DNA of 61,465 nucleotides from a virus, in IMG/VR virus record IMGVR_UViG_3300019889_000016, positions 1-61,465 of that record; one strand, written 5' to 3'. Below, piece after piece: positions 1,009-60,846 of the stretch. Numbering within the stretch: the first letter of the stretch is position 1; every line of letters begins with the position of its first letter. The notes below the pieces were generated by a model. It was not told where the DNA came from. It did not search any database and worked only from the letters and a program-made list of their open reading frames with translations. The translations under genes and the position numbers were made by a program.

Positions 1009-1045
1009 ACGTTACCGCGGTCACGGGTGGTCGCACAAGCGCGCT
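1009..1045 (-). promoter_or_regulatory. Promoter/operator repeat, site 1
   Basis: On the minus strand, -35 TTGTGC (1033-1038), an 18-bp spacer and -10 TAACGT (1009-1014). The -35 is preceded by CGTAGCGCGC and the -10 by ACCGCGG, giving the inverted CGTTACCGCG/CGCGGTAACG layout shared by the other sites. It lies between the terL stop (1044) and the 73-aa gene. Confidence 0.75.
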
Positions 1046-2459
1046 ACGAAGCGATGCGACGATCGGCCAGACCCTTCGAGTGGTCGCCCGGCGGGAGCGA
1101 CAGATCCGGGATGAGCCAGCTCACACCCCACACCAGCGCGTCCATACGGTCGGGCGACGTCGGGTCCAGCGGCGTCCAGAAACACATCTGCTCCTCCAAC
1201 TGAGGGAACACGCCGACGTGGTGGCAGCGGGCCTGCCCGCGGTCGTAGAGGATCGCCACCGGCTCGGCGCGGACCCGCTTCGCTCGGGTGGCCCGGACTT
1301 CGTCCACGGGGATCTCGGGGGCCTGGATCTTGATGACGTCGACGACCAGCGCCGCACCAAAGTTGGTTTCGGCGACGACCGAGTCGGCCGCCCAGTCGCG
1401 GTACGCCTGGATCACGATCCGCGACCACACCTCGGGGCGGTTCTGGCACGACAGATCGTCGAGGACGTAGACGTGCTGGCGGCCCCACTGGTCGCGGGTC
1501 GCGGCCACGCCGACGACGACGATCCCGCACTCGTCGCCACCATCGGAACCGGACGGGTCGACCGCCACACAGATCCGGGTGAGCGCCGGCATCTCGCCGA
1601 GGCGGATGCGGGAGTTCTGGATCAGGTCGGCGTTCCACAGGGCGCCCTCGACGCTGTCGACGACCTTGCCGTGGATCTCCTGGTCGGCCAGGCGGGTGCC
1701 TTGGTAGCGGCCGAGGACGGCGGCCATGAACGCCACCGGCAGGTTGGTGCGGTTGTCGAGCATCGACCCGCGGGTGATCTGGGTGGGGCCGTGCTTGCTG
1801 GCCAGCAGGTCGCGGATGACGGGGACGGGCTTGGGGGTGGTGGTGACGCACCCCTGGGGGACCATGCCGTCGGGGCACGTGCCGCGCAGCGCCAGCTCGG
1901 CGTTCGTGAACACGGTGTTGCCGACGGCGTCGACCTTGTGCTTGTACGCGGCCAACTCGTCGATCCACAGGGTGTGGAAGTTCCGGCCGCGGGGGCCTTC
2001 GGGCTCGATGGCGGTGTGGACCTCGAACTCGGAGATGTGCTCGGTGCCGTCGTCGCGCATGATCCCGACCTTGGGTTCCAGCGTGGTGTCGGCGCCGATC
2101 CAGCGGTGACCCCGGCGGCGTACCGCCTCGCGGATTCCGGACACGCCACCGATCTGGAGGGCTTTCACGTCGTCGTTGTTCTGGCCGATCAGGCCGACCA
2201 GGTGCGCCATGCCGGCATCGGCGAACGCTTCGCAGCGGTCCAGGACCCACTCGGCGCCGGTGCGGTTCTTGCCCCAGCCGCGGCCGGTGACGATCACCCA
2301 CCACCGCCACAGCCACAGCGGGGCGAGCTGTTCGGGGCGGGCGTGGAACTGCCACGATCGCCACAGGGCGTCCAGCTCGTCCTCGTCGTACGCGGCGAGC
2401 ACGGCGTCCAGCTCGTCGCTGGTCAGGTCGGACCACTGCTCAACGAGGCTGGCGGCCAC
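1044..2459 (-). CDS. terL: Terminase large subunit
   Basis: The motor and nuclease that packages phage DNA into proheads. 471 residues, normal for the family. The ATPase domain has a Walker A-type loop TGRGWGKNRTG (58-68) and Walker B TLWIDELA (161-168). The RNase H-like nuclease domain has VAVDPSGSDGGDECG (296-310), an acidic VVAETNFG (359-366) and DRMDAL (435-440), supplying the usual three acidic metal ligands. The GTG start follows GGGAGGTGACC and overlaps the upstream RHH-like gene by 20 bases. Unusually, the small subunit is about 4.8 kb upstream rather than adjacent. Identification is secure. Confidence 0.95.
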   Translation of the reverse strand: MAASLVEQWSDLTSDELDAVLAAYDEDELDALWRSWQFHARPEQLAPLWLWRWWVIVTGRGWGKNRTGAEWVLDRCEAFADAGMAHLVGLIGQNNDDVKALQIGGVSGIREAVRRRGHRWIGADTTLEPKVGIMRDDGTEHISEFEVHTAIEPEGPRGRNFHTLWIDELAAYKHKVDAVGNTVFTNAELALRGTCPDGMVPQGCVTTTPKPVPVIRDLLASKHGPTQITRGSMLDNRTNLPVAFMAAVLGRYQGTRLADQEIHGKVVDSVEGALWNADLIQNSRIRLGEMPALTRICVAVDPSGSDGGDECGIVVVGVAATRDQWGRQHVYVLDDLSCQNRPEVWSRIVIQAYRDWAADSVVAETNFGAALVVDVIKIQAPEIPVDEVRATRAKRVRAEPVAILYDRGQARCHHVGVFPQLEEQMCFWTPLDPTSPDRMDALVWGVSWLIPDLSLPPGDHSKGLADRRIAS

Positions 2460-2700
2460 CGGTCACCTCCCATTCGACGATCTCGTCGCGGCCCGGCGGG
2501 CGGGGCAACCCGACGTGTATGCCGGGCTCCATTGTGAACCCCAGGTCGAGCAGGTGGGCCTCGATCACTCGGCGGATGTAGTCGGCCACCGAGTCGGCGT
2601 CGGTGGTCAACACCAGGTAGTCGAGGATGCGGCGCACCTCCTCGGGGAGGCGGGTGGCCACCGGCGCCGTGGGGCGGTCGTACCGCGGCGCCTGGGCCAT
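2440..2700 (-). CDS. Small RHH-like protein upstream of terL
   Basis: 86 residues beginning MAQAPRYDRP. The segment VATRLPEEVRRILDYLVL followed by DADSVADYIRRVIEAHL resembles a ribbon-helix-helix DNA-binding fold: a short strand, then two helices. The ATG overlaps the stop of the preceding gene. Position next to terL suggests a packaging accessory or local regulator, but the recognisable small terminase subunit is at 7299-8000, so I do not call it TerS. A longer ORF start upstream is rejected because it would overlap two genes. Confidence 0.65.
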   Translation of the reverse strand: MAQAPRYDRPTAPVATRLPEEVRRILDYLVLTTDADSVADYIRRVIEAHLLDLGFTMEPGIHVGLPRPPGRDEIVEWEVTGGRQPR

Positions 2701-2927
2701 CAGCGTCTCGGTGGCGCGAGGGAGGCCGACGGCGGCAGACCGGGCGGCGGGTACTGCGGCGGCGGAAGCCAGTAGACGCCGGGCACGTTGGGCTCGGGGC
2801 GGCGTAGCTCGCGCATCATGGCGTTGTGCCGGCGGCGGGCGGTGGCCTGCCGGGACCGGTACCAGCCCAGCGGCGGGAACACGACCCACAGCAGCCCACG
2901 CCACGCGGCTCCCGCTAGGCGCATCAT
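2700..2927 (-). CDS. Small protein with one hydrophobic segment
   Basis: 75 residues. A hydrophobic, possibly membrane-associated stretch (AWRGLLWVVFPPLGWY, residues 8-23) is followed by a very basic segment (RSRQATARRRHNAMMREL) and a proline-rich tail (WLPPPQYPPPGLPP). The ATG overlaps the previous TGA. A single-span membrane peptide with a cytoplasmic basic region is the simplest reading; function unknown. Confidence 0.6.
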   Translation of the reverse strand: MMRLAGAAWRGLLWVVFPPLGWYRSRQATARRRHNAMMRELRRPEPNVPGVYWLPPPQYPPPGLPPSASLAPPRR

Positions 2928-3205: not shown

Positions 3206-3566
3206 CGCGGGCCTTCCTCTCGAACTCACGGTGGACATCGGCGAACGCGTCGGCGGCCTGGTTCTGCCACGACGCGGTGTCTCGGCGGCGTTCGGCGGCC
3301 AGCTCGGCCTCGCGGTCGAACCGGCCAGTGAGATAGTCGTGCTCGGCGTGGCGGACGGCGGTGGCCATATCGGCCATGGGGTCCGCCGCCGGGGATGTCC
3401 AGCCGGTCGGCCCGGAGCTGTCAGCACCGTCATCCCCGGTCGGGCATGGCGCACCGGCCGAGTCGGATGCCGACAGCTCCGGGCCGGGGCCGCCGTCGTC
3501 CGCGGCGCGGCGGCCGGTCCATGTCGGGAACATCGCCGTCACGATGCGACGCCAGATGTCACGCAT
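3189..3566 (-). CDS. Hypothetical 125-aa protein
   Basis: Starts MRDIWRRIVTAMFPTW. An amphipathic or hydrophobic N-terminal helix is followed by a Gly/Pro/Ser-rich linker (residues about 20-60) and a long charged helix (MADMATAVRHAEHDYL onward, then EAELAAERRRDTASW) likely to form a coiled coil. Its ATG lies inside the last codons of the AAA+ ATPase gene, suggesting coupled translation and possibly a partner of that ATPase (inference). Confidence 0.6.
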   Translation of the reverse strand: MRDIWRRIVTAMFPTWTGRRAADDGGPGPELSASDSAGAPCPTGDDGADSSGPTGWTSPAADPMADMATAVRHAEHDYLTGRFDREAELAAERRRDTASWQNQAADAFADVHREFERKARDAATG

Positions 3567-4908
3567 GATCGGAGGGTACCCCCGGGACCTGGTTGGCCTG
3601 CTCCCACCGGACCATGAGCAGGTCGTGTGCGGCCCAGCGGGCGGCGGCCATGTCGCCCACGTTGGCGGTGATGGTGCCGACGACCTCGGCCGGGGAGATG
3701 GTGGGCCACACCCCATGGTTGGGCATCTCGGCGGTGAGCCCGGTCATGCGGGTGACCAGCCGCTGGAACTGCTCGTCGGTCAGGTAGGACATCTCCAGCT
3801 CGATGTCGACGCGCCCGGGCCGCAGCAGGGCGTCGTCGAGCACCGCACGGTTGTTGGTCGACATCGCGGTGATAAGCCCGTGCGGGGTCGACATGCCGTC
3901 CAAGGCGTTGAGCAGGCCGCCCAACGTGATGCCGGCGCGTTCGGCGTCGTCGCGGGCCTTGGCGGCGTGGACCACGTCGATGTCCTCCAGCAGCAGCATG
4001 CACCGCTCGGGGACGTTGCCGACCAGCTCGATCAGGTTGGCGTCGGCCTCCAGGTCGGACAGCGCCACGGCGTACACGTCGAGTCCCAGAGCGGCGGCGA
4101 TGGCCCGGAACGCGGACGTCTTCCCGGTGCCGGGGGGGCCGTGGAACAGGTAGCCGCGGTGCCACGGGACACCCATCAGGGCGTACTTTTCTTCGGCGTC
4201 GAGGAACGTGCGCAGGTCGGCGAGGACCCCGTCGAGGTGGCCGGCGGGCAACACGACGCTGTCGAGTGGGCGGGCCGGCAGCAGGCGACGCGGCCCCCAG
4301 TGACCCCATCGTGACGCGGTCACCAGCCGGGGGGTGCGCTTGCCTTCCACCAGGGTGTCGGCGATGCCCTGCAGGAACCGGACCACGGCCTGTCGTCCGT
4401 CGGCCGAGTCCGACGTGAACACGATCTTGCGGGGCTTGAACAGGTACGACGACCGGCTCTCCGAGTCGGTGCCGGGCCGCTGGGAGTTCTCGTCCTGCTC
4501 GACGCGCACCGCGACCCGGTGGCCGTCCAGGTCGACGTCGTGGGATCGGGTGCCGTCGTAGCTCAACCGCACCCGGCGGATGACGGCGGACTTGGAGCTG
4601 GTGTCGTCCATCGGCGCGAGCTGGTCGCCGCGGACGGCGTGGGTTCTGGCGGTGAGCGCCCGCTGGTCGATGTCGGGCAGCATCTGTAGCAGCCAGTCCT
4701 GGACCAGGTCGTAGACCTCGTCGCCTTCGGGGACGGTGACGCTGTAGGACCGGTTCTGCTGGTGGTTCCGGTAGAGCGTGAGTCCCTGCTGGCCCAGGTG
4801 GTAGAGCGCGGTCGCTGTCGCGAGGCGGGTGCCCCACTTCCCCTTGGACGGGCCGACGGCCGTACGGGCCGCGGCGACGTGGTCGGTGGTCGGCGGGGAC
4901 GCGGTCAC
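3559..4908 (-). CDS. BCS1-like AAA+ ATPase
   Basis: 449 residues from a GTG start (VTASPPTTDHV) overlapping the previous TGA. The N-terminal half has the BCS1-type layout: a domain around SYSVTVPEGDEVYDLVQDW, a KPRKIVFTSDSADGRQ segment, then RPLDSVVLPAGHLDGVLADL leading into the AAA+ core. Walker A is GPPGTGKTS (257-265), Walker B LLLEDID (305-311), and an arginine-finger region LLRPGRVD follows (361-368). Such ATPases remodel or translocate folded proteins; the mitochondrial BCS1 N-terminal transmembrane helix is not obvious here. Role in the phage unknown. It sits among membrane micro-proteins between the terminase subunits. Confidence 0.85.
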   Translation of the reverse strand: MTASPPTTDHVAAARTAVGPSKGKWGTRLATATALYHLGQQGLTLYRNHQQNRSYSVTVPEGDEVYDLVQDWLLQMLPDIDQRALTARTHAVRGDQLAPMDDTSSKSAVIRRVRLSYDGTRSHDVDLDGHRVAVRVEQDENSQRPGTDSESRSSYLFKPRKIVFTSDSADGRQAVVRFLQGIADTLVEGKRTPRLVTASRWGHWGPRRLLPARPLDSVVLPAGHLDGVLADLRTFLDAEEKYALMGVPWHRGYLFHGPPGTGKTSAFRAIAAALGLDVYAVALSDLEADANLIELVGNVPERCMLLLEDIDVVHAAKARDDAERAGITLGGLLNALDGMSTPHGLITAMSTNNRAVLDDALLRPGRVDIELEMSYLTDEQFQRLVTRMTGLTAEMPNHGVWPTISPAEVVGTITANVGDMAAARWAAHDLLMVRWEQANQVPGVPSDHA

Positions 4909-6831: not shown

Positions 6832-6861
6832 ACGTTACCGCGGTAGCGGTGCGGATGCGAA
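6832..6861 (-). promoter_or_regulatory. Promoter/operator repeat, site 2
   Basis: Minus strand: -35 TTCGCA (6856-6861), 18-bp spacer, -10 TAACGT (6832-6837), with CTACCGCGGTAACG over the -10. It overlaps the 3' end of the MerR-like gene (stop at 6835) and reads into the 240-aa gene starting at 6797. Confidence 0.7.
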
Positions 6862-7263
6862 CATGGCCGACAGGTCGACGTCGGAGCCGACCAGCTCGGC
6901 CAGGTCGTAGCGCACGACGACGGCGGCGCCGACGTCGTCGATGGCGCGGCGCAGGTCCGCCCACGACCCCGCCCACATCATCGTCATGGGCTCGGGGGCC
7001 AGCACGGCGTAGCCGCGGCGGGGCGGGTCTTCGGTGGGGTCCATGGCGGCGCGGGCGACGTCGGGGAACGCTGTGGCGTCCCCGTTGGCGGGGATCACTC
7101 CGGTCATGTGGTTGGCGAGCGCCAGGCGGATGACGGTGCGGGTGGGCCACCGGCGACGGGACCCGCTGCCCTGGTTCATGCCGGCGACGGCGCCGGACCG
7201 CGTGAGGTAGTCGAGCTGCCGGTAGGTGCACCCGATGGTGCTGCACGCCTGACGCGACGACAT
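6835..7263 (-). CDS. MerR-like helix-turn-helix protein
   Basis: 142 residues. The N-terminus MSSRQACSTIGCTYRQLDYL then LTRSGAV is a typical winged-helix/MerR-type recognition segment, followed by a basic stretch (GSGSRRRWPTRTVIRLALA). The C-terminal half has strands around GYAVLAPEPMTMMW and AAVVVRYDLAEL. A TAACGT box at 7274-7279 ends 10 bases before the ATG (7 before an alternative in-frame GTG at 7266), so the mRNA may be leaderless. It could regulate the repeated operator sites, but nothing here proves that. Confidence 0.75.
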   Translation of the reverse strand: MSSRQACSTIGCTYRQLDYLTRSGAVAGMNQGSGSRRRWPTRTVIRLALANHMTGVIPANGDATAFPDVARAAMDPTEDPPRRGYAVLAPEPMTMMWAGSWADLRRAIDDVGAAVVVRYDLAELVGSDVDLSAMFASAPLPR

Positions 7264-7298
7264 CACGCCGTCAACGTTACCGCGATGCTGACGGGAGG

Positions 7299-8000
7299 CT
7301 ACGGATGGTGCCCGTTGCCGTTCGGTGTTGCGGGCTCGGCCATCAGCGTTTCCAGCGCGGCCGGGTCGGTCTCGGCGCGGGCCGCTTGGATGTCGGCCAG
7401 GTGCCGGCGCACCTTCTCGATGATCGGTGTGGCGTCGACCTGGACCGCGCCGCCGTCGGCGCCGGTGATCTCCAGCCGGGACCGGTTGAAATCGCCGGGC
7501 CACCGGTGCTGCAGCAGCCACGCCACCATGTGCCCGTCGGGGCCGACTTCGATCTCGCGGGTGATCGTCTCGACCACGACCGCGCCGGCGGGGGCGTTGA
7601 CCGACTTGGTGGTGGTCTCCTTGCGGGTGATCCCACCGCGGGCCAGCTGACCCGCCACCATCATCAGGCCGGTGCGGGCCTCGGCCTCGGCCAGGTCGAT
7701 CTTCGCGGCGAGCGTCGCACAGTTCCGTTCGTGGCGGGACATGTCGCTGCGGCGGCGCTTCCCGGCGGTGACCTCCCCCAGGCACCGGTTCCCGACCGTG
7801 CGCCACGTGCGCAACGTCTCGACGGCCACCCCTACCCGGGCGGCGGCGTCGTGGAGGAACCCGCCCAGCCGCATGGTCTCCTCGACGACGTCGATGACGT
7901 TGAGCGCCTGCTGGGTGCCATCGGCACGGGGCCGGTAGTTGACGACGGCACGCAGGTTCGTCGGCGGGTGACCGGCACCTGGTCGTCGTCCTCCGGGCAT
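7299..8000 (-). CDS. terS: Terminase small subunit-like DNA-binding protein
   Basis: 233 residues. An N-terminal helical DNA-binding region (ALNVIDVVEETMRLGG, then DAAARVGVAVETLRTWRTVG) has the helix-turn-helix seen in phage small terminase subunits. The characteristic C-terminal block follows: WLLQHRWPGDFNRSRLEITG and GADGGAVQVD, resembling the end of many actinophage TerS proteins. A central basic helix region lies at about 85-120. TerS recognises the packaging site and recruits TerL. The highly structured DNA just upstream (8022-8221) is a candidate packaging site. Confidence 0.75.
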   Translation of the reverse strand: MPGGRRPGAGHPPTNLRAVVNYRPRADGTQQALNVIDVVEETMRLGGFLHDAAARVGVAVETLRTWRTVGNRCLGEVTAGKRRRSDMSRHERNCATLAAKIDLAEAEARTGLMMVAGQLARGGITRKETTTKSVNAPAGAVVVETITREIEVGPDGHMVAWLLQHRWPGDFNRSRLEITGADGGAVQVDATPIIEKVRRHLADIQAARAETDPAALETLMAEPATPNGNGHHP

Positions 8001-8021
8001 GGCCGGAGCGTAGCGCGCAAC

Positions 8022-8854: not shown

Positions 8855-9847
8855 TCATGCGGCGACGGCGGCGACCTCCCGGATCAGGCCCAGCGCCTTG
8901 GCCTTGAGCGCCTCGGGCCGCAGGATGGTGCGACCGACGTAGCTGTCCCGGTTGCGGAAACCCCGCACGTGGTCCAGGTATTCGGTCGACGCCTGCAGCA
9001 GCCCGTAGGCGGTGCCCCGGATGCCGTCGGTGGTCAGCGACCGCTCGTACAGGCCGGCGAACGTGGCCCGGGCCTTGTCGACGTTGGCGGCGACCCGGTC
9101 GGAGCAATGCTCGCCCCGGTCGGCCGGGGACGGCAGGAACAGCTGGGTGAAGTCCTTCACCTGGCTGTCGTTGACCGGGACCTTGGCCAGCTCCTCGAAC
9201 ATGGCCCGGGTGCGGGCGGATTCGGTGCGCAGGTTGGTCAGGGCGTCCTTGGCGGCGGCGATGCGTTCCTGGACGTTGCCGGTGTGGCGGAACACGTGCC
9301 GGGCACCGGAGCGTTCGCCCTGGTCGTCGGCGGCCTGCCAGGTGTTCCAGCACACCACCCGGATGTCGGTCATGGTCAGCGAGCACGACGCGGACCCGTC
9401 GTGAGCGTTGAGCATGGCCATGAACGGGTAGGTCGGGGAGTCGTCGCCGGGGACCTGGTAGGGCTCGTCCAGCCGGACCAGCGCCCACACCATCGCCCCG
9501 TCCTTCACCGAGCCGGCGGTCTCGAACCGGACGTTGGTGTCGGTGTCGAGCACGGCGTCAATGATGGTGCCCATGTCGGCGTGGGTGATGACGCTGTAGG
9601 CGTCGGAGGCGACGTGGAGCAGGTCACCGGTGTCGTCGCGGACGATGGCCTGGCGGCCGGCGACCTGGACGTTGCCGATCCCGGAGTTGGGGCCGGCGAT
9701 GAAGATCGGGGCCGTGGTCGGCTCCCACATCAGGCCGGCGGCGCGACGGGCGTCATCCCAGTTCTCGGGGTAGTCCTCCAGCAGCGTCTCCTGGCCGTGC
9801 CAGGACGGCTCTCGGACTGCGAAACCGGTGTCGAAGTAGGCGGGCAT
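8855..9847 (-). CDS. DUF932 phage/plasmid-like protein
   Basis: 330 residues, the usual length of this family (annotated in many phages and plasmids as DUF932 or TIGR03299). Typical features are the opening AYFDTGFAVREPSWHG, the central MVWALVRLDEPYQ, TDIRVVCWNTWQAA and RHTGNVQERI. The biochemical role is not established. A CGGAGGACCC ribosome binding site precedes the ATG; promoter site 4 (9888-9917) drives it and a hairpin at 8813-8840 ends it, so it is probably a single-gene transcript. Confidence 0.85.
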   Translation of the reverse strand: MPAYFDTGFAVREPSWHGQETLLEDYPENWDDARRAAGLMWEPTTAPIFIAGPNSGIGNVQVAGRQAIVRDDTGDLLHVASDAYSVITHADMGTIIDAVLDTDTNVRFETAGSVKDGAMVWALVRLDEPYQVPGDDSPTYPFMAMLNAHDGSASCSLTMTDIRVVCWNTWQAADDQGERSGARHVFRHTGNVQERIAAAKDALTNLRTESARTRAMFEELAKVPVNDSQVKDFTQLFLPSPADRGEHCSDRVAANVDKARATFAGLYERSLTTDGIRGTAYGLLQASTEYLDHVRGFRNRDSYVGRTILRPEALKAKALGLIREVAAVAA

Positions 9848-9887: not shown

Positions 9888-9928
9888 ACCGTACCGCGGT
9901 CACGCCCCGGTGCGCAAGCGCGGTAACG
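9888..9928 (-). promoter_or_regulatory. Promoter/operator repeat, site 4
   Basis: Minus strand: upstream CGTTACCGCGC, -35 TTGCGC (9912-9917), 18-bp spacer, -10 TACGGT (9888-9893). It lies between a terminator (9950-9982) and the DUF932 start, so it clearly begins a new transcript. Confidence 0.8.
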
Positions 9929-9997: not shown

Positions 9998-10666
9998 TTA
10001 GACGGTGGCCGAGATGGTCACGTCGTTGGCCAGCGTGTGCGACCAGGCCGTGTTCTCCGGGTCGGAGATCCCCGCGGCGGCCAGCAGCGCCACCAACGCC
10101 GTCGTGTTGACCCGGCCGCCGTCGTCGCCCAGGCCCTTCGTGGCCTGCCATGCGACCGACGACAGCTTGTTCTGCGAGTCGGGCATCGCCCGGTCGCCGA
10201 CGTGGAAGCGGAGCCCGGCGGCCTTGGTGCGCTTCGGGGTGGTGGCCTTCCGGGTGGCGGCCTTCCGGCCGGTGCGGGGCTTGCCCGCGGCATGTGCGCC
10301 GTTCATGGCGTCCAGGTTGGCGGTCGACGGGCGGTCGCCCACTTGGCCGGCCTCGTTCCAGGCCTTGAGCGCCTTCCACTCGTCGCGGGCGACCATCAGG
10401 TCGTAGCCCTCGGGGGCGAACGGCTCCGGGGTCTCGGCGGGGGCTTCGACGACGGGGGTCTCGACGTTGGTGGTCTCGATGGCCTTGATCCGGCGGGAGG
10501 GCTGGCCGCCCGTCTTCCGGGCGGGGCACTTCGGGCAGTCCAGCGTCGCGCCGGGGGCGCAGCGCTCCGGGGACATCGGGAAGTCGTCGCCCTTCGCCCG
10601 GGCCAGCGTGTGGTTGCAGGACAGGCGGACGACGGTGGTGATGGCGTGGGTGGTCGTGGTGGGCAT
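9998..10666 (-). CDS. Zn-ribbon protein with basic linker
   Basis: 222 residues. The N-terminus has cysteine/histidine pairs fitting a zinc ribbon (LSCNHTL, RCAPG, LDCPKCP, residues about 15-48). A lysine/arginine/alanine-rich linker (GRKAATRKATTPKRTKA) resembles histone-like or DNA-compacting tails. The C-terminal 70 residues (RFHVGDRAMPDSQNKL and following helices) form a small domain I do not recognise. DNA binding is plausible. AGGGAGATC precedes the ATG. Confidence 0.7.
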   Translation of the reverse strand: MPTTTTHAITTVVRLSCNHTLARAKGDDFPMSPERCAPGATLDCPKCPARKTGGQPSRRIKAIETTNVETPVVEAPAETPEPFAPEGYDLMVARDEWKALKAWNEAGQVGDRPSTANLDAMNGAHAAGKPRTGRKAATRKATTPKRTKAAGLRFHVGDRAMPDSQNKLSSVAWQATKGLGDDGGRVNTTALVALLAAAGISDPENTAWSHTLANDVTISATV

Positions 10667-10708: not shown

Positions 10709-10748
10709 ACGTTACCGCGGTACTCGGTGGAGTGCAAGCGCGGTAACG
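10709..10748 (-). promoter_or_regulatory. Promoter/operator repeat, site 5
   Basis: The cleanest copy. On the minus strand CCGTTACCGCGC, then -35 TTGCAC (10732-10737), 17-bp spacer, -10 TAACGT (10709-10714), with GTACCGCGGTAACG over the -10. It starts the transcript of the Zn-ribbon gene at 10666. Confidence 0.85.
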
Positions 10749-10758: not shown

Positions 10759-11436
10759 CTACGAGCGGCCACCGGGAGTCGAACCCGGACCGTCACCACG
10801 GGATGGTGCCGGCTCACCTTCGAGCCCTTGGCCGCGGGGGAACGGTACCGCCATGCCAGCCACCACCCGGCGCATGCCCCGATCCAGCGGCATGACGTAG
10901 CGGTGCTTCGGGGGCATCGGGACCCGCTCGGCGTGCGGGTCGACGTGCTCGCGGAGCCACGGGATCGACTGGCCGCCGATGCCGTACGTGGAGTGCAACG
11001 TCTTGGGGTGGACCATGCGGCCGTTGACCCGGTACCACTGGTGGTCGACGGCGCCGGTGTAGGTCCAGTTCCCGGCCTGGTAGATCGTGCCCAGGTGCCC
11101 CTGGCCTTCGTCGGCGAACGACACGATCAGCCGGAGCCCGGGGTTGGTGCGGCGCAGCCAGGCGATGGCCCGGGCGACGACCTGGGTCGTGGGCGACTGA
11201 TGGGTGGTCAACGCCACCCGGACCAGCTCGCACACCTGCGTGGCCGAGCAGCCGAACGCCCGCCCCAGCGCTGGGGCGGCGCCGCGCCCGAACATCACCA
11301 CCCCGATGAACTCGCCGTCTTCCCACGCGCCGGCGCGGACCAGCTTCCCGGACGGCATGCGGCGGGAGTAGTGCCACCTGGTGACGGCGTAGACCGCGGC
11401 GCGGTGCTCGGCCGGTGCCACCACCAGGTCGACCAT
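10759..11436 (-). CDS. mom: Mu Mom-like DNA modification protein
   Basis: 225 residues. Strong resemblance to the phage Mu Mom family, a GNAT-like enzyme that converts adenine in phage DNA to a carbamoylmethyl derivative and protects it from restriction: WHYSRRMPSGKL (21-32), FIGVVMFGRG (43-52), CELVRVAL (69-76), LRLIVSFADEGQGHLGTIYQ (101-120), AGNWTYTG, and near the end KHRYVMPLDRGMR. The last 20 or so codons overlap the tRNA-Gly gene, so the natural end may have been nearer AVPFPRG. ATG overlaps the previous TGA. Family assignment is confident; activity here is untested. Confidence 0.85.
   Translation of the reverse strand: MVDLVVAPAEHRAAVYAVTRWHYSRRMPSGKLVRAGAWEDGEFIGVVMFGRGAAPALGRAFGCSATQVCELVRVALTTHQSPTTQVVARAIAWLRRTNPGLRLIVSFADEGQGHLGTIYQAGNWTYTGAVDHQWYRVNGRMVHPKTLHSTYGIGGQSIPWLREHVDPHAERVPMPPKHRYVMPLDRGMRRVVAGMAVPFPRGQGLEGEPAPSRGDGPGSTPGGRS
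10764..10835 (-). tRNA. tRNA-Gly (anticodon CCC)
   Basis: 72 bases folding as a complete cloverleaf: acceptor GCGGCCA/TGGCCGC (7 bp), D stem GGCT/AGCC, anticodon stem GCACC/GGTGA (last pair mismatched) around loop ATCCCGT giving anticodon CCC, T stem CCGGG/CCCGG around TTCGACT, discriminator T as in many bacterial tRNA-Gly. No encoded CCA. It lies wholly inside the 3' end of the mom-like reading frame on the same strand. It would read GGG codons. Confidence 0.9.
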
Positions 11437-14387: not shown

Positions 14388-14690
14388 TTACTGGCCGTCG
14401 CGTCCGCGGCGGGCCTTGAGTAGAGCCTGGCGGACCGACTCAGCGGTGACGCCGAGGTAGTCGGCGATCTCCTTGTTGGTGACCTCCAGCGGGCCGGCCA
14501 ACATCAGGTAGAGCCGGATGCGGCGCTTGTTCTTGGCGTCGACGGGCTTCATGTACTCGACGATGTCGAGCAGCTCGTCGAGCAGCTTGCGGCGCGCGGT
14601 CTCCCGGTCGACGTCGACCAGGAGCTGAGTCACCTCCTGCTCGGGGGTGGGTGTGTCCGCCGTCGGGGCGGCGGTGTCGACGTCGGCCAT
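14388..14690 (-). CDS. Sigma region 4-like HTH protein
   Basis: 100 residues. After an acidic, proline-rich N-terminus, a helical segment (LLDELLDIVEYMKPVDAKNK) leads to a clear helix-turn-helix, VTNKEIADYLGVTAESVRQA followed by LLKARRG, typical of sigma-70 region 4 or related regulators. No region 2 is present, so it is not a complete sigma factor. It could bind -35-like DNA and so act on the repeated promoter sites (inference). Confidence 0.75.
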   Translation of the reverse strand: MADVDTAAPTADTPTPEQEVTQLLVDVDRETARRKLLDELLDIVEYMKPVDAKNKRRIRLYLMLAGPLEVTNKEIADYLGVTAESVRQALLKARRGRDGQ

Positions 14691-14693: not shown

Positions 14694-15080
14694 TCAGACC
14701 GGGGCCGGCTCGGCGGCGAAGTCGTCGGCCGGGTCGTCCACGTCGTCGGCCTCGTCGTCGTCGTAGGGGAGCGACTGCACGCCCTTGGCCTCTTCGACGC
14801 GGCGGCGCTGCTGCTCCAGCAGCTCCTCCACCAGGCCCGGGTCGATGATCGCGGCGTTGTCGACGCGCAGCACGTGGATGCGCTCCAACACGTCGGTGTC
14901 CTTCACCTTGTCGTGGCGGACCTTGACGACCTCGAACTCGATGACGACGGTGCCGCGTTCGCCGTGGTGCATCTCCAGGCTGTTGACGGCCAGCGCCTTG
15001 TTGAGGCCGCCGGACGCTCCGGGCATCTCGATGCCTGACGCGACCACGTCGCGGTCCTCGAACGGTGTGAGCGATCCCAT
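14694..15080 (-). CDS. Conserved phage protein of unknown function (128 aa)
   Basis: Starts MGSLTPFEDRDVVASGIEMP. The sequence has the look of a family common in actinophages beside recombination nucleases: a strand-rich core (GTVVIEFEVVKVRHDKV), a short VLERIHVLRVDNAAII segment and an acidic tail (YDDDEADDVDDPADDF). It could associate with the nuclease at 15120-15533. Confidence 0.7.
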   Translation of the reverse strand: MGSLTPFEDRDVVASGIEMPGASGGLNKALAVNSLEMHHGERGTVVIEFEVVKVRHDKVKDTDVLERIHVLRVDNAAIIDPGLVEELLEQQRRRVEEAKGVQSLPYDDDEADDVDDPADDFAAEPAPV

Positions 15081-15105
15081 GTGTGGGGTGTCCTTCCTGT
15101 TGGGG

Positions 15106-15129
15106 GTTACCGCGCTACGTTAGCGCGGT
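15106..15129. promoter_or_regulatory. Operator-like repeat, double half-sites
   Basis: GTTACCGCGCTAC followed immediately by GTTAGCGCGGT: two copies of the operator half-site in a 24-bp stretch between 15080 and 15120. Minus-strand TAACGT is present (15117-15122), but no good -35 at the right spacing, so it may be an operator or weak promoter for the 128-aa gene. Confidence 0.55.
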
Positions 15130-15533
15130 CCGCGCTGTCGGGCGGTGGCCAGCTCCCGGTAGGCGATCAACCGGTCGACCGGATCGAACCCGTAGACCCG
15201 GGGCGCCGACTTCGGGTCACGCATCCACGCTTGAATGTCGGGCCATGGGTCCCGGGGTCGCAGCACCCACGCCCGGGCGTTGGGCACCTCGGCGTAGAGC
15301 GACAGCACCGCCCGCTGGGCGCCCTCCAGGCGGCCACGGTCGGCCTTGACTTCGATGGCCAGGAGCCGGGGCGGACGGAGCGCGATCAGGTCCGGCTGGC
15401 CTTTCAGCGTGCAACCGGTGCGCCAGAACCCCTGCTTGGTGAGCAGCGGGTAGGTGTGCGCGACGACGTAGCCGAACACCTCCAGCGCCGCCACCAGGGT
15501 GGCCTGCCACTCCTTCTCCGTCGGCCCCGGCAC
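15120..15533 (-). CDS. VRR-NUC-type nuclease
   Basis: 137 residues from a GTG (VPGPTEKEWQ). PD-(D/E)XK layout: an N-terminal helix with catalytic Glu (EKEWQATLVAALEVFGY), then GQPDLIALRPPRLLAIEVKA, giving the D...ExK core (PDLI, IEVKAD), and a following Gln helix (RLEGAQRAVLSLY). These single-domain VRR-NUC proteins cut branched or flapped DNA, like Holliday junction resolvases. Likely serves recombination or resolution of replication intermediates with the helicase. Confidence 0.85.
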   Translation of the reverse strand: MPGPTEKEWQATLVAALEVFGYVVAHTYPLLTKQGFWRTGCTLKGQPDLIALRPPRLLAIEVKADRGRLEGAQRAVLSLYAEVPNARAWVLRPRDPWPDIQAWMRDPKSAPRVYGFDPVDRLIAYRELATARQRGPR

Positions 15534-19151: not shown

Positions 19152-19191
19152 ACGTTACCGCGCTACAGGTCGGGTTGCAAGCGCGGTAACG
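19152..19191 (-). promoter_or_regulatory. Promoter/operator repeat, site 8
   Basis: Minus strand: GCGTTACCGCGC, -35 TTGCAA (19175-19180), 17-bp spacer, -10 TAACGT (19152-19157), with GTAGCGCGGTAACG over the -10. The stop of the small ORF 19163-19291 lies inside the site. Confidence 0.8.
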
Positions 19192-19970: not shown

Positions 19971-20383
19971 GCGGCCCGGGCTTCTGCCAGGATCTCTGCC
20001 ACAGTCGCGCCGGCATCGGGATTCTCATCGACCCACTCCTGGATCAACCCCTCCAGCGAGGCCACGTCGGCGTCGATGCGCTGGAGCTGCGGGCGCACGA
20101 AGTCCTCGATCAGCTCCAGCCGGTTGAGGCGGACCACGTAGGCGTAGACCGCTGAGCCGTCGGCGGTGCGGCCCACGTGGCGCATGCCCTCGGTGCGGCA
20201 GATCCCCACGAACAGCGATCGGAGCCAGCTTCGGCGGGCCTGGTCCTGGAAGCGGACGGGCAGGTCTGGGAGCGCTGCGTCGGTGACCTGGTCGACGGGG
20301 ACGCGGTCGAGTCGGGCGTATTCAGGGCGGGCGGCCAGCCAGCGGCGCCCCCAGTCGTCGGCGGTCTCTCGGGTGGTCATCAT
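19967..20383 (-). CDS. Hypothetical 138-aa protein
   Basis: MMTTRETADDWGRRWLAARP start with ATGATG overlapping the previous TGA. Mostly helical (SWLRSLFVGICRTEGM, LIEDFVRPQLQRIDADVASL). Second half resembles a coiled coil. In the replication block; no family recognised. Confidence 0.65.
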   Translation of the reverse strand: MMTTRETADDWGRRWLAARPEYARLDRVPVDQVTDAALPDLPVRFQDQARRSWLRSLFVGICRTEGMRHVGRTADGSAVYAYVVRLNRLELIEDFVRPQLQRIDADVASLEGLIQEWVDENPDAGATVAEILAEARAA

Positions 20384-21141
20384 CGGGTCCCTTCGGTCAG
20401 AACGGTGCGGGCTTCGGTGAGCGCGGCGATCGCCTGGTCGATGTCGACCAGGACGGATTCGGCTACTCGCGGGGCCTGGTTGGCGGGGAGGTTGGCGTGG
20501 CCCCCTGGGTAGATACCGAACCGCATCGCGGCGATGGGCTGCTCCGAGGTGCGGGCCAGCTTCCGGGCAGCGACGACCCAGCGATCGGCTTCGGCCCACT
20601 GGCCGGCGGTGGACGGTGGAGCCGGCGGGTCGACCTTTCGAAGCACGTTCGCCCGCGACACCGTGTTCGACCGGCCCTCGATGGCGTCGCGCTCGGCCCC
20701 CTCGACGGCCGCGTCGAACGTCTCCTCATCGGCCTCCGCGAGCTTGCCGTACGCCGCTGCCTGGTCGTAGCTGATCCCATGATCGGCCAGGGTCGGCGGC
20801 GGCGCATCGGAAACCCCTCGGTCTGCACTAGGGGTTTCTGGCACGGCCCGAAGCCTCGGGCGTCCGCCCTTGTTCTTGCCTCTCTCGGCGAGGAGTTGCC
20901 CGATGCGCCGTTCGGCCCGGACGCGCATCGCCCCAGCGGCCGCGACCATCTCGGCGTTCAGGTCACGGGCACGGGTCGCGTGCTCCAACGTCGAGATCGC
21001 GGCCAGGATGTGGCGGGCCTCATCCAGGTCGCTGGTCTCGCGGACCGCCACCGCAGCCTGTCCGAGGAAGGCGAGCACCACGCCCACGGGGTCGTCGTGG
21101 GCATCGAGCGCACCGGCGCTCACCGGTACCAGATCCGTCAT
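20380..21141 (-). CDS. ParB/KorB-like helical protein
   Basis: 253 residues. An EMVAAAGAMRVRAERRIGQL helix followed by LLAERGKNKGGRPRLR and an HTH-like TLADHGISYDQAAAYGKLAE is a pattern I associate with phage and integrative element proteins that resemble the DNA-binding part of ParB/KorB. The C-terminal third is another helical region (RWVVAARKLARTSEQP). Probably DNA-binding. GGAGG precedes the ATG, and a TAACGT/operator half-site lies at 21181-21194 upstream. Confidence 0.65.
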   Translation of the reverse strand: MTDLVPVSAGALDAHDDPVGVVLAFLGQAAVAVRETSDLDEARHILAAISTLEHATRARDLNAEMVAAAGAMRVRAERRIGQLLAERGKNKGGRPRLRAVPETPSADRGVSDAPPPTLADHGISYDQAAAYGKLAEADEETFDAAVEGAERDAIEGRSNTVSRANVLRKVDPPAPPSTAGQWAEADRWVVAARKLARTSEQPIAAMRFGIYPGGHANLPANQAPRVAESVLVDIDQAIAALTEARTVLTEGTR

Positions 21142-22094
21142 CGGGGTGCCTCCAGGGCATTCGTCGGGGATGTACGCGCTGACGTTACCGCGATACCACG
21201 CAGGTGGCCCATCGTCCGTCCCATCGCCGTCCGCGGAGCCTCCACCGCCGCCACCCGCCGGTCGGGCAACGCGTCGTCACCCCAGCACTCCCCGTTCAGC
21301 CACGTGGCCGGATGCTTCGTGTAGGCGTCCTCCCGGTTCGGGTCCGCCGCGTAGGCCATCGCGCCCCGAACCATCACCTCCGGAGGAACATGCCGACGCC
21401 GCGCCGCCGCCCACGCCTTCCGCGCCTGCCCCTTCCCGGCCTTCCGCGGGTAGACGTCCCAGAACGCCACGAACGCGAGGTCCCGATCACTTCCCAGAAC
21501 GGGGCCGTCTGCGCGCTGGGTGCCGAGGGATTGGCGGATGGCCATCGGAGACGCAGCAGCAGGTGGCACGTCAGGGCCGGGAAGTGGCGCAGGCCGAACT
21601 GGATCGTTGCCCAGATCCAACCGGCCAGCCGGCGCGGCTCGCCCATCGTTTTCTCGTTCCTCATGGCTCTCCTTCACCTGGCTTTCCTTAGGCGCGTTGT
21701 CCAGCGTGGAGGGTCCGCGCTGGACAACGGGGACCCCTCCCCCCTGGCTGGCGTGGACCCCGCGTTGTGGAACGCGCTCCTCGGGCTGTCGGGGGATCAT
21801 CAGCACCCGGTAGCCGTTGGAGTCTGGGGAGCCATCCGGGCGCAGTCGGGCGACGCGTTCCACCCAGCCGGCGGTTTCCAGTTCGCTGATCCACGTGGCG
21901 ATGGAGCGCTTCGACCGACCGATCAGGCCGCCGATGCGGGCGTGGGAGGGGTAGCAATTCTCCGGATCGGAGCCGTGGCGAACTAGGACGCCGTAGACGC
22001 GGACAGCGTCCGGGCTGATGGCGTCGTCGTACAGCAACGTTTCCGGGATCATCGCGAACCGGTGCTCGACTTCGACGTGGGCCGGAGCGTTCAT
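21138..22094 (-). CDS. Replication initiator-like winged-helix protein
   Basis: 318 residues. The N-terminal winged helix AISPDAVRVYGVLVRHGS, SHARIGGLIGRSKRSIATWI, SELETAGWVERVARL is typical of phage replication initiators. A variable linker follows, then FWDVYPRKAGKGQARKAW and YTKHPATWLNGECWGDD, the C-terminal signature of many replication O-like proteins. It probably binds the origin and recruits the loader and host helicase. ATG overlaps the stop of a 17-aa leader ORF. Confidence 0.8.
   Translation of the reverse strand: MNAPAHVEVEHRFAMIPETLLYDDAISPDAVRVYGVLVRHGSDPENCYPSHARIGGLIGRSKRSIATWISELETAGWVERVARLRPDGSPDSNGYRVLMIPRQPEERVPQRGVHASQGGGVPVVQRGPSTLDNAPKESQVKESHEERENDGRAAPAGRLDLGNDPVRPAPLPGPDVPPAAASPMAIRQSLGTQRADGPVLGSDRDLAFVAFWDVYPRKAGKGQARKAWAAARRRHVPPEVMVRGAMAYAADPNREDAYTKHPATWLNGECWGDDALPDRRVAAVEAPRTAMGRTMGHLRGIAVTSARTSPTNALEAPR
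21181..21194 (-). promoter_or_regulatory. Operator half-site with TAACGT box
   Basis: GACGTTACCGCGAT, inside the 3' end of the initiator gene and 40 bases before the start of 20380-21141. On the minus strand it gives TAACGT, but no good -35 is seen. Confidence 0.45.
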
Positions 22095-22144
22095 GCGGTG
22101 GCCGCCGTTGTGGTGACCGCGCTACGGTGTCCCTTGTTGGGCAT
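22091..22144 (-). CDS. 17-aa leader peptide of the replication operon
   Basis: MPNKGHRSAVTTTAATA, with an excellent AGGAGG nine bases before the ATG and a TGA overlapping the ATG of the initiator gene. The initiator itself has no own strong ribosome binding site, so its translation probably depends on this ORF. An operator-like TGACCGCGCTACG (22116-22128) falls within it, and a GACGGG/CCCGTC hairpin lies at 22165-22193 in the leader. Confidence 0.55.
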   Translation of the reverse strand: MPNKGHRSAVTTTAATA

Positions 22145-22257: not shown

Positions 22258-22288
22258 TTGCACACACCACCCCGAACCGCGGTAACGT
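22258..22288 (+). promoter_or_regulatory. Plus-strand promoter/operator repeat
   Basis: The only plus-strand copy: -35 TTGCAC (22258-22263), 19-bp spacer, -10 TAACGT (22283-22288) with AACCGCGGTAACG over the -10. It reads into the Gam/RecT operon; AGGAGG at 22312-22317 precedes the GTG at 22326. Confidence 0.75.
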
Positions 22289-22325: not shown

Positions 22326-22985
22326 GTGCCCGACACCCGGGAATTGACCGCCGACGAACAACTCGACGAGTGGCTGGAGTCGTCGCTGGATGAGATCGGC
22401 GATGAGCCCGCCGACCAGGAACAGGCCGACCGGCTGCTGTGGGCGTTGCGTGGCGTCCGCCGTCGCCGGGCCGAGGTGACCGACGTCGGGAAGGCCCGCG
22501 TGCAGATGATCAGCGTGTGGGCCGGTCAGCAGACCGACCAGCTCGATGCCCGGGCGGCGCACCTGGAGCGGCTGCTGGAAGGGTGGACCCGCGCCGAACA
22601 TGACCGGTCGGGCCGCAAGTCGTGGCCGCTGCCGGCGGGCCAGCTCAAGCTCCAGGCGCGGCGGACGCGATCCGAAGTCGACGCCCGCATGGAAGCGGCG
22701 GACGCGGCCCACCACGTCGGGGCGTTGGTCGGCACGGGGATGCTGCCGTCGGACGCGGTCAAAGTCGAGCGCACCGTGCGCGCCGGCACCGTGAAGGACA
22801 ACACGGTGCCGGGGGACGTGATCCCCGACTACCCGAACACGCCGGAGGGCTACGAGGCCCGGACCGCGGTGGGCACGTTCGATTTCGGAGGCGCGGAGCC
22901 GGTCGTCCGGGTGGTGCCCGGCGTGGTGCTGCTCGTGCCGAAGCCCGGCCGTGAAGGCCAGACGTTCGCGGCGGTGACGTCGTGA
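22326..22985 (+). CDS. Gam-like nuclease inhibitor
   Basis: 219 residues from GTG (VPDTRELTADEQLDEW). The core matches Mu Gam-like proteins: helical VGKARVQMISVWAGQQTDQL, then HLERLLEGWTRAEHDRSG, KSWPLPAGQLKLQARRT and the beta-rich EVDARMEA region. Gam proteins bind DNA ends and block RecBCD/AddAB-type exonucleases. Being first in an operon with RecT fits a recombination function. The acidic N-terminus (first 50 residues) is extra. Confidence 0.8.
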   Translation: MPDTRELTADEQLDEWLESSLDEIGDEPADQEQADRLLWALRGVRRRRAEVTDVGKARVQMISVWAGQQTDQLDARAAHLERLLEGWTRAEHDRSGRKSWPLPAGQLKLQARRTRSEVDARMEAADAAHHVGALVGTGMLPSDAVKVERTVRAGTVKDNTVPGDVIPDYPNTPEGYEARTAVGTFDFGGAEPVVRVVPGVVLLVPKPGREGQTFAAVTS

Positions 22986-27477: not shown

Positions 27478-27486
27478 GTCCCCCGA

Positions 27487-27502
27487 CCGTAGCGCGCTAC
27501 GG
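27487..27502. promoter_or_regulatory. 16-bp perfect palindrome of the operator family
   Basis: CCGTAGCGCGCTACGG between the stop of 27497-27961 and the ATG at 27477. On the minus strand it offers a TACGGT -10-like box, without a strong -35, so it may be an operator or weak promoter ahead of the endolysin. Confidence 0.55.
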
Positions 27503-30694: not shown

Positions 30695-30704
30695 CGCGGT
30701 CACG

Positions 30705-31660: not shown

Positions 31661-31688
31661 ACGTTAGCGCGCTACCGGAACCGCGCTA
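31661..31688 (-). promoter_or_regulatory. Operator repeat with TAACGT box before the dioxygenase
   Basis: Two half-sites, GTTAGCGCGCTAC and CCGCGCTAC. Minus-strand -10 TAACGT at 31661-31666. The -35 region is poor, but the box is placed so that the A of the ATG would be near the transcription start. Confidence 0.6.
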
Positions 31689-58056: not shown

Positions 58057-58275
58057 TTAGGGCCAGCCGAGCAGCTTCGCCAGGCGGGCCACGTTGTCGA
58101 ACGGACGATCCACCCGCAGCTGCGCCACCGTCATCAGCCGGTCACCATGGCGGACGGTCAGGGCGAACTCGGAGCGGGAGTAGCCGGCGTCCGCGCATGC
58201 GCCGGTGCGCCAGGCGATGCCGGCTCGGCGGTCGTAGTCGGCCCACCGGCCGGCCTCGATGGGCCACACGGTCAC
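58057..58275 (-). CDS. Hypothetical 72-aa protein
   Basis: GTG start (VTVWPIEAGRWADYDRRAG) in the previous TGA. Strand-rich middle (SEFALTVRHGDRLMTVAQL) and C-terminal FDNVARLAKLLGWP helix. Unknown. Confidence 0.6.
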   Translation of the reverse strand: MTVWPIEAGRWADYDRRAGIAWRTGACADAGYSRSEFALTVRHGDRLMTVAQLRVDRPFDNVARLAKLLGWP

Positions 58276-58574
58276 CACCGGATCAGCACCCGCTCGTCGG
58301 CCGAGAACACCACCGCGTCGGCCACCTCGGCGACGCCGTCGGGCAGGTTGCCCAACGCCTCGTGGACCATCGACGACCGGTCGATCAGCGTGACCGACAC
58401 CAGGTCGCCCAGTTGCTCGACGCGGACGGCGACCAGCGGCCGGTCCAAGTCGATGGGCACGTTGCGGCCGTCCGCTGGGGTGAGGCGGAACCCGTCGCCC
58501 TCGGCCAGCTCGGCGGCGACGCCCCAGAAGTAGTCGGCGTAGCGGTGATGGGCGGGGCGACCGGTGAGATCCAT
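58272..58574 (-). CDS. Hypothetical 100-aa protein, likely leaderless
   Basis: MDLTGRPAHHRYADYFWGVA, then alternating strands and helices (RPLVAVRVEQLGDLVSVTLI). The -10 box of promoter site 14 ends six bases before the ATG and no ribosome binding site is present, so the mRNA probably starts at the ATG. First gene of the block leading to the portal. Confidence 0.65.
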   Translation of the reverse strand: MDLTGRPAHHRYADYFWGVAAELAEGDGFRLTPADGRNVPIDLDRPLVAVRVEQLGDLVSVTLIDRSSMVHEALGNLPDGVAEVADAVVFSADERVLIRW

Positions 58575-58580: not shown

Positions 58581-58620
58581 ACGTTACCGCGGTACGGACG
58601 GTGGGGCAAGCGCGGTAACG
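58581..58620 (-). promoter_or_regulatory. Promoter/operator repeat, site 14
   Basis: Minus strand: CCGTTACCGCGC, -35 TTGCCC (58604-58609), 17-bp spacer, -10 TAACGT (58581-58586) with GTACCGCGGTAACG over the -10. The stop codon (TAA) of the small gene 58584-58784 is part of the -10 box. Confidence 0.85.
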
Positions 58621-59537: not shown

Positions 59538-60004
59538 TTCGGCACCACGCCCAGGTCGCGCAGCAGGCGCAGGGCACGGCGGCCGTTCCGCCAGCTGCGG
59601 TAGGCGTCCCACGCCTCGCCCGCCATGGCCAGGCCGACAGCAGCGCCGATGATCGAGTAGGCGACCACCGGGGCGATCAGGCCACGGGGTTCCTGACCGG
59701 GCCGGAACAGCGGCGGCATCGGCGTCGGGACCGACCGGGGGCCGTCGTCGTCGGTCACTGTGCCCCACTGGGCGCTGACCAGCGTCCCGCCGGCGTCGGT
59801 CCGGTGCACGGTCCAACCCGCCGCGGCGGCAGCCGGAACGTGGTCGTTGCACACGGGCATGTCGTAGGTCACCGTCTGGTCGATCGGGCTGAGTGCCCGG
59901 TGGCCGCGCATCGGGAGCAGGCACTTGCGGCCGGTGTCGATGTGGTAGCGGCTGGGGGTGTGGCCGTCGGCGGGCCAGGCGCACAGGTGGACGTCATCGG
60001 GCAT
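59534..60004 (-). CDS. Hypothetical 156-aa protein with a hydrophobic segment
   Basis: MPDDVHLCAWPADGHTPSRY, an N-terminal beta region with Cys residues, then a proline-rich linker and one hydrophobic stretch (GLIAPVVAYSIIGAAVGLAM) that may be a transmembrane helix, ending in a basic tail (RSWRNGRRALRLLRD). Overlaps the upstream gene by 11 bases. Confidence 0.6.
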   Translation of the reverse strand: MPDDVHLCAWPADGHTPSRYHIDTGRKCLLPMRGHRALSPIDQTVTYDMPVCNDHVPAAAAAGWTVHRTDAGGTLVSAQWGTVTDDDGPRSVPTPMPPLFRPGQEPRGLIAPVVAYSIIGAAVGLAMAGEAWDAYRSWRNGRRALRLLRDLGVVPK

Positions 60005-60791
60005 CGGGGGTCGTCTCCGTGGTCGGGTCGACGTGGATGGCGTCGCTCTCCGGGTACTCGCAGGCCAGGCACTGTCCATCGACGCGGGAGGCCACGTAGA
60101 GGTGCTGTTCCTCCGGTGCCCGGCCGGCGTGGACCCTGGAGAACGGGCCGGTCGTGCAACCCTCGACCTGGCAGCCGGCGCGCCCTGCGTCGTGCCGGTA
60201 GGCGTGAGGTGACAGGCCGGACAGGGGCGGGCAGTCCCGGTCGTCTTCGTGGCCGGGGCACCATCGGTCCCCGCAGCCGCGCAGGATGCGGGGCTGCGGG
60301 TCAGGCGCTGGGGCCTGGACGATGTAGCCAGGGTCCCAGCTGTCGTCGTCCAAGTCCCCACCGTCGACCACCAGCGGCAACGGCGTGACGTCCATCTCCA
60401 GGGGGTGGTGGACCGGGTGGTCGTGGGGCTTCCGGCACGCCGTTCGGTTGCACAGGTCGTCCGGGCCGGTCTCGTAGTCGTGCCACATCGTGTCCACCAG
60501 CGGGGCAGCGGGGACACCGGCGCGGAGGCGTAGCGCCTCGCGGGACACCTGGCCGGCGGTGGGCCAGGGCCAGCGTTTCGCTAGTTCGATGCGCAGGGCC
60601 ATGTCCTCGTCGGCGGCGCGGGCGTAGGTGGCGATGGCGTCGACCATCAGCGGGAGGGAGCTGGCGAGCATGTCGATGGCGTGCTGGAAGGTGACGCTGG
60701 TGGCGTAGAGCTGGCGGTGTGGGCCGGGGGTGACGAGGGCGCCGCGTAGGCGTTCTACCTGGTAGGCGGGGTCGCCGGGTTGGGTGGTCAT
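59994..60791 (-). CDS. Hypothetical 265-aa protein with CxxC...H motifs
   Basis: ATG after CCGGAGACCAC. Helical N-terminal half (FQHAIDMLASSLPLMVDAIA). The second half has several possible zinc sites: LCNRTACRKPHDHPVHH, RGCGDRWCPGHEDDRDC and a final CLACEYPESDAIH, again the C-x2-C...H knuckle. Function unknown; first gene of the block after the 60813 operator. Confidence 0.65.
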   Translation of the reverse strand: MTTQPGDPAYQVERLRGALVTPGPHRQLYATSVTFQHAIDMLASSLPLMVDAIATYARAADEDMALRIELAKRWPWPTAGQVSREALRLRAGVPAAPLVDTMWHDYETGPDDLCNRTACRKPHDHPVHHPLEMDVTPLPLVVDGGDLDDDSWDPGYIVQAPAPDPQPRILRGCGDRWCPGHEDDRDCPPLSGLSPHAYRHDAGRAGCQVEGCTTGPFSRVHAGRAPEEQHLYVASRVDGQCLACEYPESDAIHVDPTTETTPDAR

Positions 60792-60812
60792 GTGGTCTCC
60801 GGGTGAGGGTTT

Positions 60813-60846
60813 CACGTACCGCGCTACATGTTAGCGCGGTAACGGG
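60813..60846 (-). promoter_or_regulatory. Promoter/operator repeat, site 15
   Basis: Minus strand CCGTTACCGCGCTAAC and GTAGCGCGGTAC form the palindromic operator pair. A TACGTG box at 60813-60818 with TTACCG 18 bases upstream is a weaker promoter than the other copies. It precedes the gene at 60791. Confidence 0.6.

Follow-up and report, generated by a model that had tools for sequence, protein, structure and literature searches.

Repeated intergenic motifs are common in actinophages, and several of the published sets have neither a known function nor a named regulator. Here, we analyzed such a set in the IMG/VR record IMGVR_UViG_3300019889_000016, a stretch of 61,465 nt (hereafter the window, or W) that is probably the near-complete genome of an uncultivated phage, and in which the motif can be read as a promoter combined with an operator, has a predicted transcription start, adjoins the gene of a candidate regulator (a MerR-like protein) and is represented by diverged versions elsewhere. 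The nearest described kind appears to be the repeated promoter motifs of actinophages, with which the window shares occurrence in many gaps, a start-codon register and conservation at orthologous positions; such arrays are known in general, and the present type appears to be undescribed.

In the Gordonia phage Vardy (cluster DJ), a 50-bp motif occurs in five copies with a probable leaderless start (PMC9671010). Vardy, a lytic phage without an integrase, resembles the probably virulent phage of the window in having a repeated intergenic promoter whose -10 is followed by an adenine that is probably the translational start, but it has a TATAAT -10, no proposed operator or regulator and a G+C content of 51%, and our searches revealed no relation between the two. 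In Microbacterium phages, cluster EC has 12 repeats of 18 bp, cluster EG 8-10 inverted repeats and cluster EI five repeats of 30 bp (PMC7302621). Like the present sites, these short motifs occupy gaps between genes in front of start codons, and EI has no identified repressor or integrase; however, their function is unknown, no -10 register has been described for them and their sequences are different. The cluster O phages (Corndog) have a dyad-symmetric 17-bp repeat and are not obviously temperate, but it is present in more than 30 copies, mostly away from promoters (PMC4351075).

The L5-like phages of cluster A contain 20-30 genome-wide sites oriented with transcription (PMC6550527), and the preliminary description of the window had compared its repeats to them. 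This comparison is apt for the arrangement (many sites, autoregulation and drift of the site), since L5-like phages also have sites at the repressor promoter and behind the repressor gene and a consensus that drifts with the repressor between relatives. It does not extend to symmetry or repressor family, nor probably to lifestyle: the L5-type sites are asymmetric, 13-14 bp long and bound by a monomer, their repressor is a different one and the phages are temperate with an integrase or parABS, whereas the present sites are palindromic (GTTACCGCGGTAAC). On the side of the regulator, CvkR is a dimeric MerR-type repressor with a leaderless mRNA and no recognizable effector site; the 15-nt palindrome to which it binds covers part of the -10 of one promoter, and other MerR-type repressors have been named, including BldC, HnoC and McdR (PMC9938897). 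The literature searched, whose coverage was incomplete, contained no account of a phage regulator of MerR or CvkR type that acts genome-wide.

The window is considered to be close to a whole genome because the circularly permuted sister genome G005 bridges both of its ends, the counterparts of W 211-762 and W 61080-61274 being neighbors there. The full-size sisters in IMG/VR are G005 (3300021408_000004) and G012 (3300027637_000001), the partial ones G006 (3300021339_000010) and G011 (3300006876_000008), and the more distant relatives G001 (3300036859_000312) and G002 (3300043331_001086); G013, G014 and G016 are further phages with a related MerR-like protein that were reached by a profile search. 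No nucleotide match to isolated phages was obtained, the terminase is at most 39% identical to that of any isolated phage, and no isolate with the MerR-like protein was found, apart from one partial 51% match to the G016 version. The phage is probably virulent and its host is most likely an actinobacterium. Tyrosine and serine integrase families had no match in the window, a record that may miss some sequence, and therefore a lysogenic role of the array is less likely and a switch within the lytic cycle is probable. Neither tRNAs nor Rfam families were found in the window. Genes were called with a simple codon-usage script, so that individual start sites are predictions; 4.75% of the window lies outside these calls.

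The 9-base half-site GTTACCGCG or its complement has 14 exact copies in the window compared with 0-1 in each of five Markov shuffles, and 11 of these copies fall within the small fraction outside gene calls. A 15-position matrix, trained only on sites of G005, G012 and G006 and using no window sequence, detected 14 window sites with at least 15 bits and none in three shuffles. Twelve of them touch intergenic DNA, as do only 5.9% of positions (binomial p ~1e-13), and the remaining two (21182 and 60828) are located at gene ends, which disposes of the possibility that the motif is equally frequent inside genes. When no prior motif was used, pieces of the site were the most over-represented intergenic 8-mers in the window, G005, G012 and G001, and largely so in G006. 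Searching 84,980 bacterial and archaeal species genomes (257 Gb) with a full-promoter pattern of approximately 20 fixed bases revealed no instance of the promoter in a bacterial genome or prophage, and in IMG/VR the pattern matched only four phage contigs (G005, G006, G011 and G012). Looser patterns of 14-15 bases gave mostly chance matches in unrelated IMG/VR contigs. The sites are not shared with phiC31, a Streptomyces phage with repeated repressor sites that served as a control, as the half-site is absent from it; phiC31 carries approximately 30 copies of CACGTGAGTA.

All 15 places given in the preliminary description hold the sequences reported for them, including the seven -35/-10 pairs with 17-19 bp spacers (1009, 6832, 9888, 10709, 19152 and 58581 on the minus strand, 22258 on the plus strand). 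The sites, with their counterparts in related phages, are as follows:

1009-1045, minus strand: promoter/operator 3′ of the large terminase gene, -35 TTGTGC, 18 bp, -10 TAACGT, palindrome TGACCGCGGTAAC; same boundary in G005 (56070) and G002 (57411), and in G014 (13396) with a different palindrome

6832-6861, minus strand: promoter/operator over the stop codon of the MerR-like gene, TTCGCA, 18 bp, TAACGT; G005 61870, G012 733, G002 54206

7274-7288, minus strand: operator/-10 of the MerR-like gene itself, TAACGT followed by 7 nt and GTG, predicted leaderless; also in G005, G012 and G001

8007-8021, minus strand: operator/-10 GCGCGCTACGCT, 6 nt before the ATG of gene 7299-8000, predicted leaderless; no sister counterpart found

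9888-9928, minus strand: full promoter/operator, CGTTACCGCGC-TTGCGC-18 bp-TACGGT, before the DUF932 gene 8855-9847

10709-10748, minus strand: full promoter/operator, CGTTACCGCGC-TTGCAC-17 bp-TAACGT, before gene 9998-10666

15104-15131, minus strand: tandem palindromes 13 bp apart, ACCGCGCTAACGTAGCGCGGTAAC, over the stop codon of a VRR-NUC-like gene and before gene 14694-15080; G005 1187/1200, G012 6190/6203, single site in G001 (16873)

19152-19191, minus strand: full promoter/operator, CGTTACCGCGC-TTGCAA-17 bp-TAACGT; same boundary in G005 (4359) and G012 (10330)

21182-21196, minus strand: operator/-10 GTATCGCGGTAACGT, inside the 3′ end of the replication gene 21138-22094 and 40 bp before gene 20380-21141; no sister counterpart found

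22111-22128, plus strand: operator/-10 TGACCGCGCTACGGT in a divergent region; G005 6458, G012 12047

22258-22288, plus strand: promoter/operator, TTGCAC-19 bp-TAACGT, ahead of the Gam-like gene 22326-22985 and the plus-strand genes that follow; G005 6609, G012 12196, G001 6239

27486-27502, minus strand: palindrome CCGTAGCGCGCTACGG with -10 TACGGT, 8 nt before the ATG of gene 27238-27477; G005 11914, G012 16824

31661-31689, minus strand: tandem palindromes 14 bp apart, -10 TAACGT, 6 nt before the ATG of the PhyH-like gene 30776-31654, predicted leaderless

58581-58620, minus strand: full promoter/operator, CGTTACCGCGC-TTGCCC-17 bp-TAACGT, 6 nt before the ATG of gene 58272-58574, predicted leaderless, upstream of structural genes

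60813-60846, minus strand: tandem palindromes 15 bp apart, GTTACCGCGCTAACATGTAGCGCGGTAC, before gene 59994-60791

The only plus-strand promoter (22258) indeed precedes the four plus-strand genes. The copies are real, but they are not uniform, as more than one type of site can be distinguished. The full form, consisting of a half-site, a TTG-type -35 and a palindrome joined to the -10, is present at 9888, 10709, 19152 and 58581 and in degraded form at 1009. On the minus strand it reads CGTTACCGCGC-TTGCAC-N17/18-TAACGT, in which the end of the spacer and the -10 together form the palindrome GTACCGCGGTAAC; the palindrome GTTACCGCGGTAAC ends inside the -10, so that its right arm is part of this element, and the second half-site GTTACCGCG abuts the TTGCA or TTGAC -35. 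The two CGCG centers are separated by approximately 23 bp in the window and by 22-23 bp in its relatives, a spacing that tracks the distance from -35 to -10. The second type (7274, 8008, 27487, 31661, 15106 and 60813) is a single palindrome or a tight pair (13-15 bp) with no recognizable -35. Given that one 9-mer is repeated at the -35 and the -10 and takes palindromic form at the latter, a dimeric DNA-binding protein acting on two operators would best explain the arrangement. MerR-type activation uses long spacers; the spacers of most copies here are 16-18 bp, which suggests direct use by sigma-A rather than classical MerR-type activation.

The position of the -10 relative to coding sequences is equally regular. 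In 54 near-intergenic copies of CG(C/T)G(G/C)TA(A/C)N(G/A)T from six genomes, with the final base of the -10 as the common reference point, an ATG follows after exactly 6 nt in 15 sites and after 7 nt in three, compared with 0-3 sites at other distances; the MerR-like genes of W, G005 and G012 have GTG, and that of G001 ATG, at 7 nt. Because this register places the transcription start on the start codon, TAACGT and TACGGT are very likely real -10s, and the register points to many of the transcripts being leaderless. The preliminary description had overlooked that a start codon lies 6-8 nt beyond the copies at 58581, 31661, 8008, 7274 and probably 27487. The first four are in the leaderless register and the site beginning at 27486 has 8 nt, while a normal leader follows the copies at 19152, 22258, 6832 and 1009. 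In the window, G005, G012 and G006, 16 of 45 sites are followed by TCACC at a distance of 13-14 nt from the -10, against a background of 0.23% per base. This conserved beginning of the transcript is seen whether the gene is leaderless, with N-termini such as MxxTxT, or has a normal leader, with ATCACC at +7.

Many of these sites are kept at orthologous gene boundaries in the sisters. Eight site-boundaries of the window recur in G005 (1009, 6832, 7274, 15104/15117, 19152, 22118, 22278 and 27486), and all of them except 1009 recur also in G012, a contig that gave no terminase match; 8008 and 21182 have no counterpart in either genome. In the gap of 31661, the relatives have sites too, but these stand before an extra plus-strand gene. 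The tandem at 15104/15117 is nearly letter-identical in three phages, although the local proteins are only about 50-65% identical. Together with the leaderless starts in register, the conserved boundaries support the earlier proposal of a combined promoter/operator used throughout the genome. In G016, G014 and G002, different intergenic palindromes occupy the same position relative to the -10. The most enriched ones are CTTAGCGCGCTAAG in G016 (as CTTAGCGCGCTAAG-GT) and GGTAGNNNNCTACC in G014, both with the overlap of the -10 retained, and one palindrome of G014 is again located behind the terminase gene. Such drift of the palindrome between phages is as expected of a regulator with drifting specificity.

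The regulator that we favor is encoded next to two of the sites:

6835-7266, minus strand: MerR-like winged-helix protein, 143 aa from GTG, candidate repressor, probably autoregulated

Its gene is framed by the site at 7274 upstream and the one at 6832 on its stop codon. The upstream site is also present in G005, G012, G001, G013 and G016 and, at the gene start, in G014, being a CGCG-centered palindrome with a -10 in G016 and G013; the stop-codon site is shared by W, G005, G012 and G002. In G001, where the half-site is kept, the DNA-binding helix of the MerR-like protein is nearly unchanged. In an AlphaFold model with a predicted local distance difference test score (pLDDT) of 85, a winged helix at the N-terminus is followed by an alpha/beta domain at the C-terminus; CvkR-like repressors dimerize through such a domain in place of a coiled coil. 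The best structural match is CvkR (7xn2), with 123 residues aligned at a root-mean-square deviation of 4.5, 11% identity and a Z-score of 7.5, which is only moderate, values below 8 possibly reflecting a common arrangement; matches to MerR proteins span Z-scores of 4 to 7.5, the classical ones reaching at most 4.7. The candidate is predicted to share with CvkR its whole-length fold, leaderless mRNA, palindromic site overlapping a promoter and repressor role; however, CvkR controls a type V-K CRISPR-associated transposon in cyanobacteria through two promoters and not a phage genome.

Among the regulators considered, the MerR-like protein, which had already been put forward for binding tests, fits best, by site placement, conservation and fold, as the putative binding protein. 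We regard it as somewhat probable that it is a phage-encoded dimeric repressor of repeated promoters that are read by the host and carry fused operators. The wider proposal, namely that a CvkR-like MerR-type repressor acts genome-wide in an apparently virulent phage clade through operators fused to leaderless -10s, with co-diverged specificity of operator and repressor (GTTACCGCGGTAAC, CAGCGCGCTAACAT, CTTAGCGCGCTAAG and GGTAGNNNNCTACC), is tentative, its chances being somewhat short of even. Several observations weigh against these proposals, in addition to the moderate Z-score. The Pfam MerR_1 match (E 0.0066) is below the cut-off and gives weak sequence support for the MerR assignment, and Foldseek returned no match better than E 0.4 for the protein and nothing usable among viral models. 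G002 has no clear site upstream of the MerR-like gene, and only a downstream site was seen in G015. A good -35 is missing from several sites, among them the one in front of the MerR-like gene, and this might indicate activation. Scoring CG(C/T)G-centered palindromes generically across genomes gave a signal too weak for use, and a second candidate regulator, discussed below, is syntenic in all five fuller genomes.

If the MerR-like protein is such a repressor, host polymerase with the housekeeping sigma factor would read the repeated promoters (TTGCA/TTGAC -35, TAACGT or TACGGT -10) at once on infection, and these would drive the blocks of early and accessory genes. One such promoter would also supply the MerR-like protein, which would accumulate and, as a dimer, bind the palindromes and exclude polymerase from the -35 and -10. 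Site 7274 would then limit its own leaderless transcript by negative feedback, the stop-codon site (6832) would limit the genes behind it, and the whole promoter set would be damped or switched off as the repressor builds up. In this scheme, binding, dimeric state, the repressing sign of regulation and timing are predictions that we infer from sequence and model. A direct test is feasible with one protein, one palindrome and natural specificity variants; if correct, the scheme would add a MerR-type repressor to phage regulation and yield a naturally occurring collection of promoters that are orthogonal, leaderless, repressible and very high in G+C.

Another phage protein could occupy the sites instead, and the preliminary description had named one:

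14388-14690, minus strand: small helix-turn-helix (HTH) protein resembling sigma region 4, 100 aa, rival candidate regulator

It is rather unlikely that this protein binds the sites and redirects the host polymerase as an activator or by sigma appropriation. Its resemblance to sigma region 4 and its identity of 86% over 66 aa in G005 agree with such a role, and the sites without a good -35 would favor it. However, its HTH is largely changed in G001 though the half-site is unchanged there, no site lies directly at its gene, which is the second one behind site 15104, and a palindrome at two positions suggests a dimer rather than a sigma-like contact. In addition, its structural model is of low confidence, and the profile search gave a match to region 4 only, below threshold, rather than to regions 2 and 4 together. 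Presence alone failed to discriminate between the two candidates, as both are conserved; it is the changed HTH and the absence of an own site that make this protein the weaker one. A ribbon-helix-helix-looking protein (2440-2700) was also considered as a regulator and had no Pfam match.

Other explanations were also weighed. Strong or extended promoters might be read by host sigma or controlled by a host regulator, palindromy being a by-product with no phage regulator involved; the -35 and -10 do fit a housekeeping sigma factor, and leaderless starts are common in actinobacteria. Even so, this appears quite unlikely, given that the full element, unlike one recognized by the host, is absent from the 84,980 species genomes, that an identical 9-mer stands both upstream of the -35 and at the -10, that the palindrome varies between related phages while the placement of the -10 stays, and that tandem palindromes exist without a -35. 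It is also unlikely that the copies without a -35 (15104, 27486, 31661 and 60813) and the stop-codon site of the MerR-like gene act mainly as stoperators. Most of them are oriented with transcription in short gaps of long same-strand runs, and phages of the L5 clade have repressor sites both upstream and downstream of the repressor gene (PMC6550527), but 31661 and 27486 are placed like promoters, 6-8 nt before a start codon, and the asymmetric, monomer-bound L5 sites contrast with the palindromes found here. A role of the repeats in DNA packaging, replication or partition instead of transcription, such as has been considered for the mostly promoter-distant palindromes of cluster O phages, more than 30 per genome (PMC4351075), is very improbable and largely refuted by the fixed register in which the sites coincide with -10s and start codons.

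Some neighboring genes were also identified. A Mom-like DNA modification protein (10759-11436; Pfam Mom, 1.8e-49) is encoded in the block that contains several full operators, with the DUF932 gene nearby. The region 28268-31654 of the window contains glycosyltransferase-, methyltransferase-, P-loop- and PhyH-like genes, the last of which is the predicted leaderless gene behind site 31661, and 3559-4908 encodes an AAA ATPase with a weak BCS1-type N-terminus.

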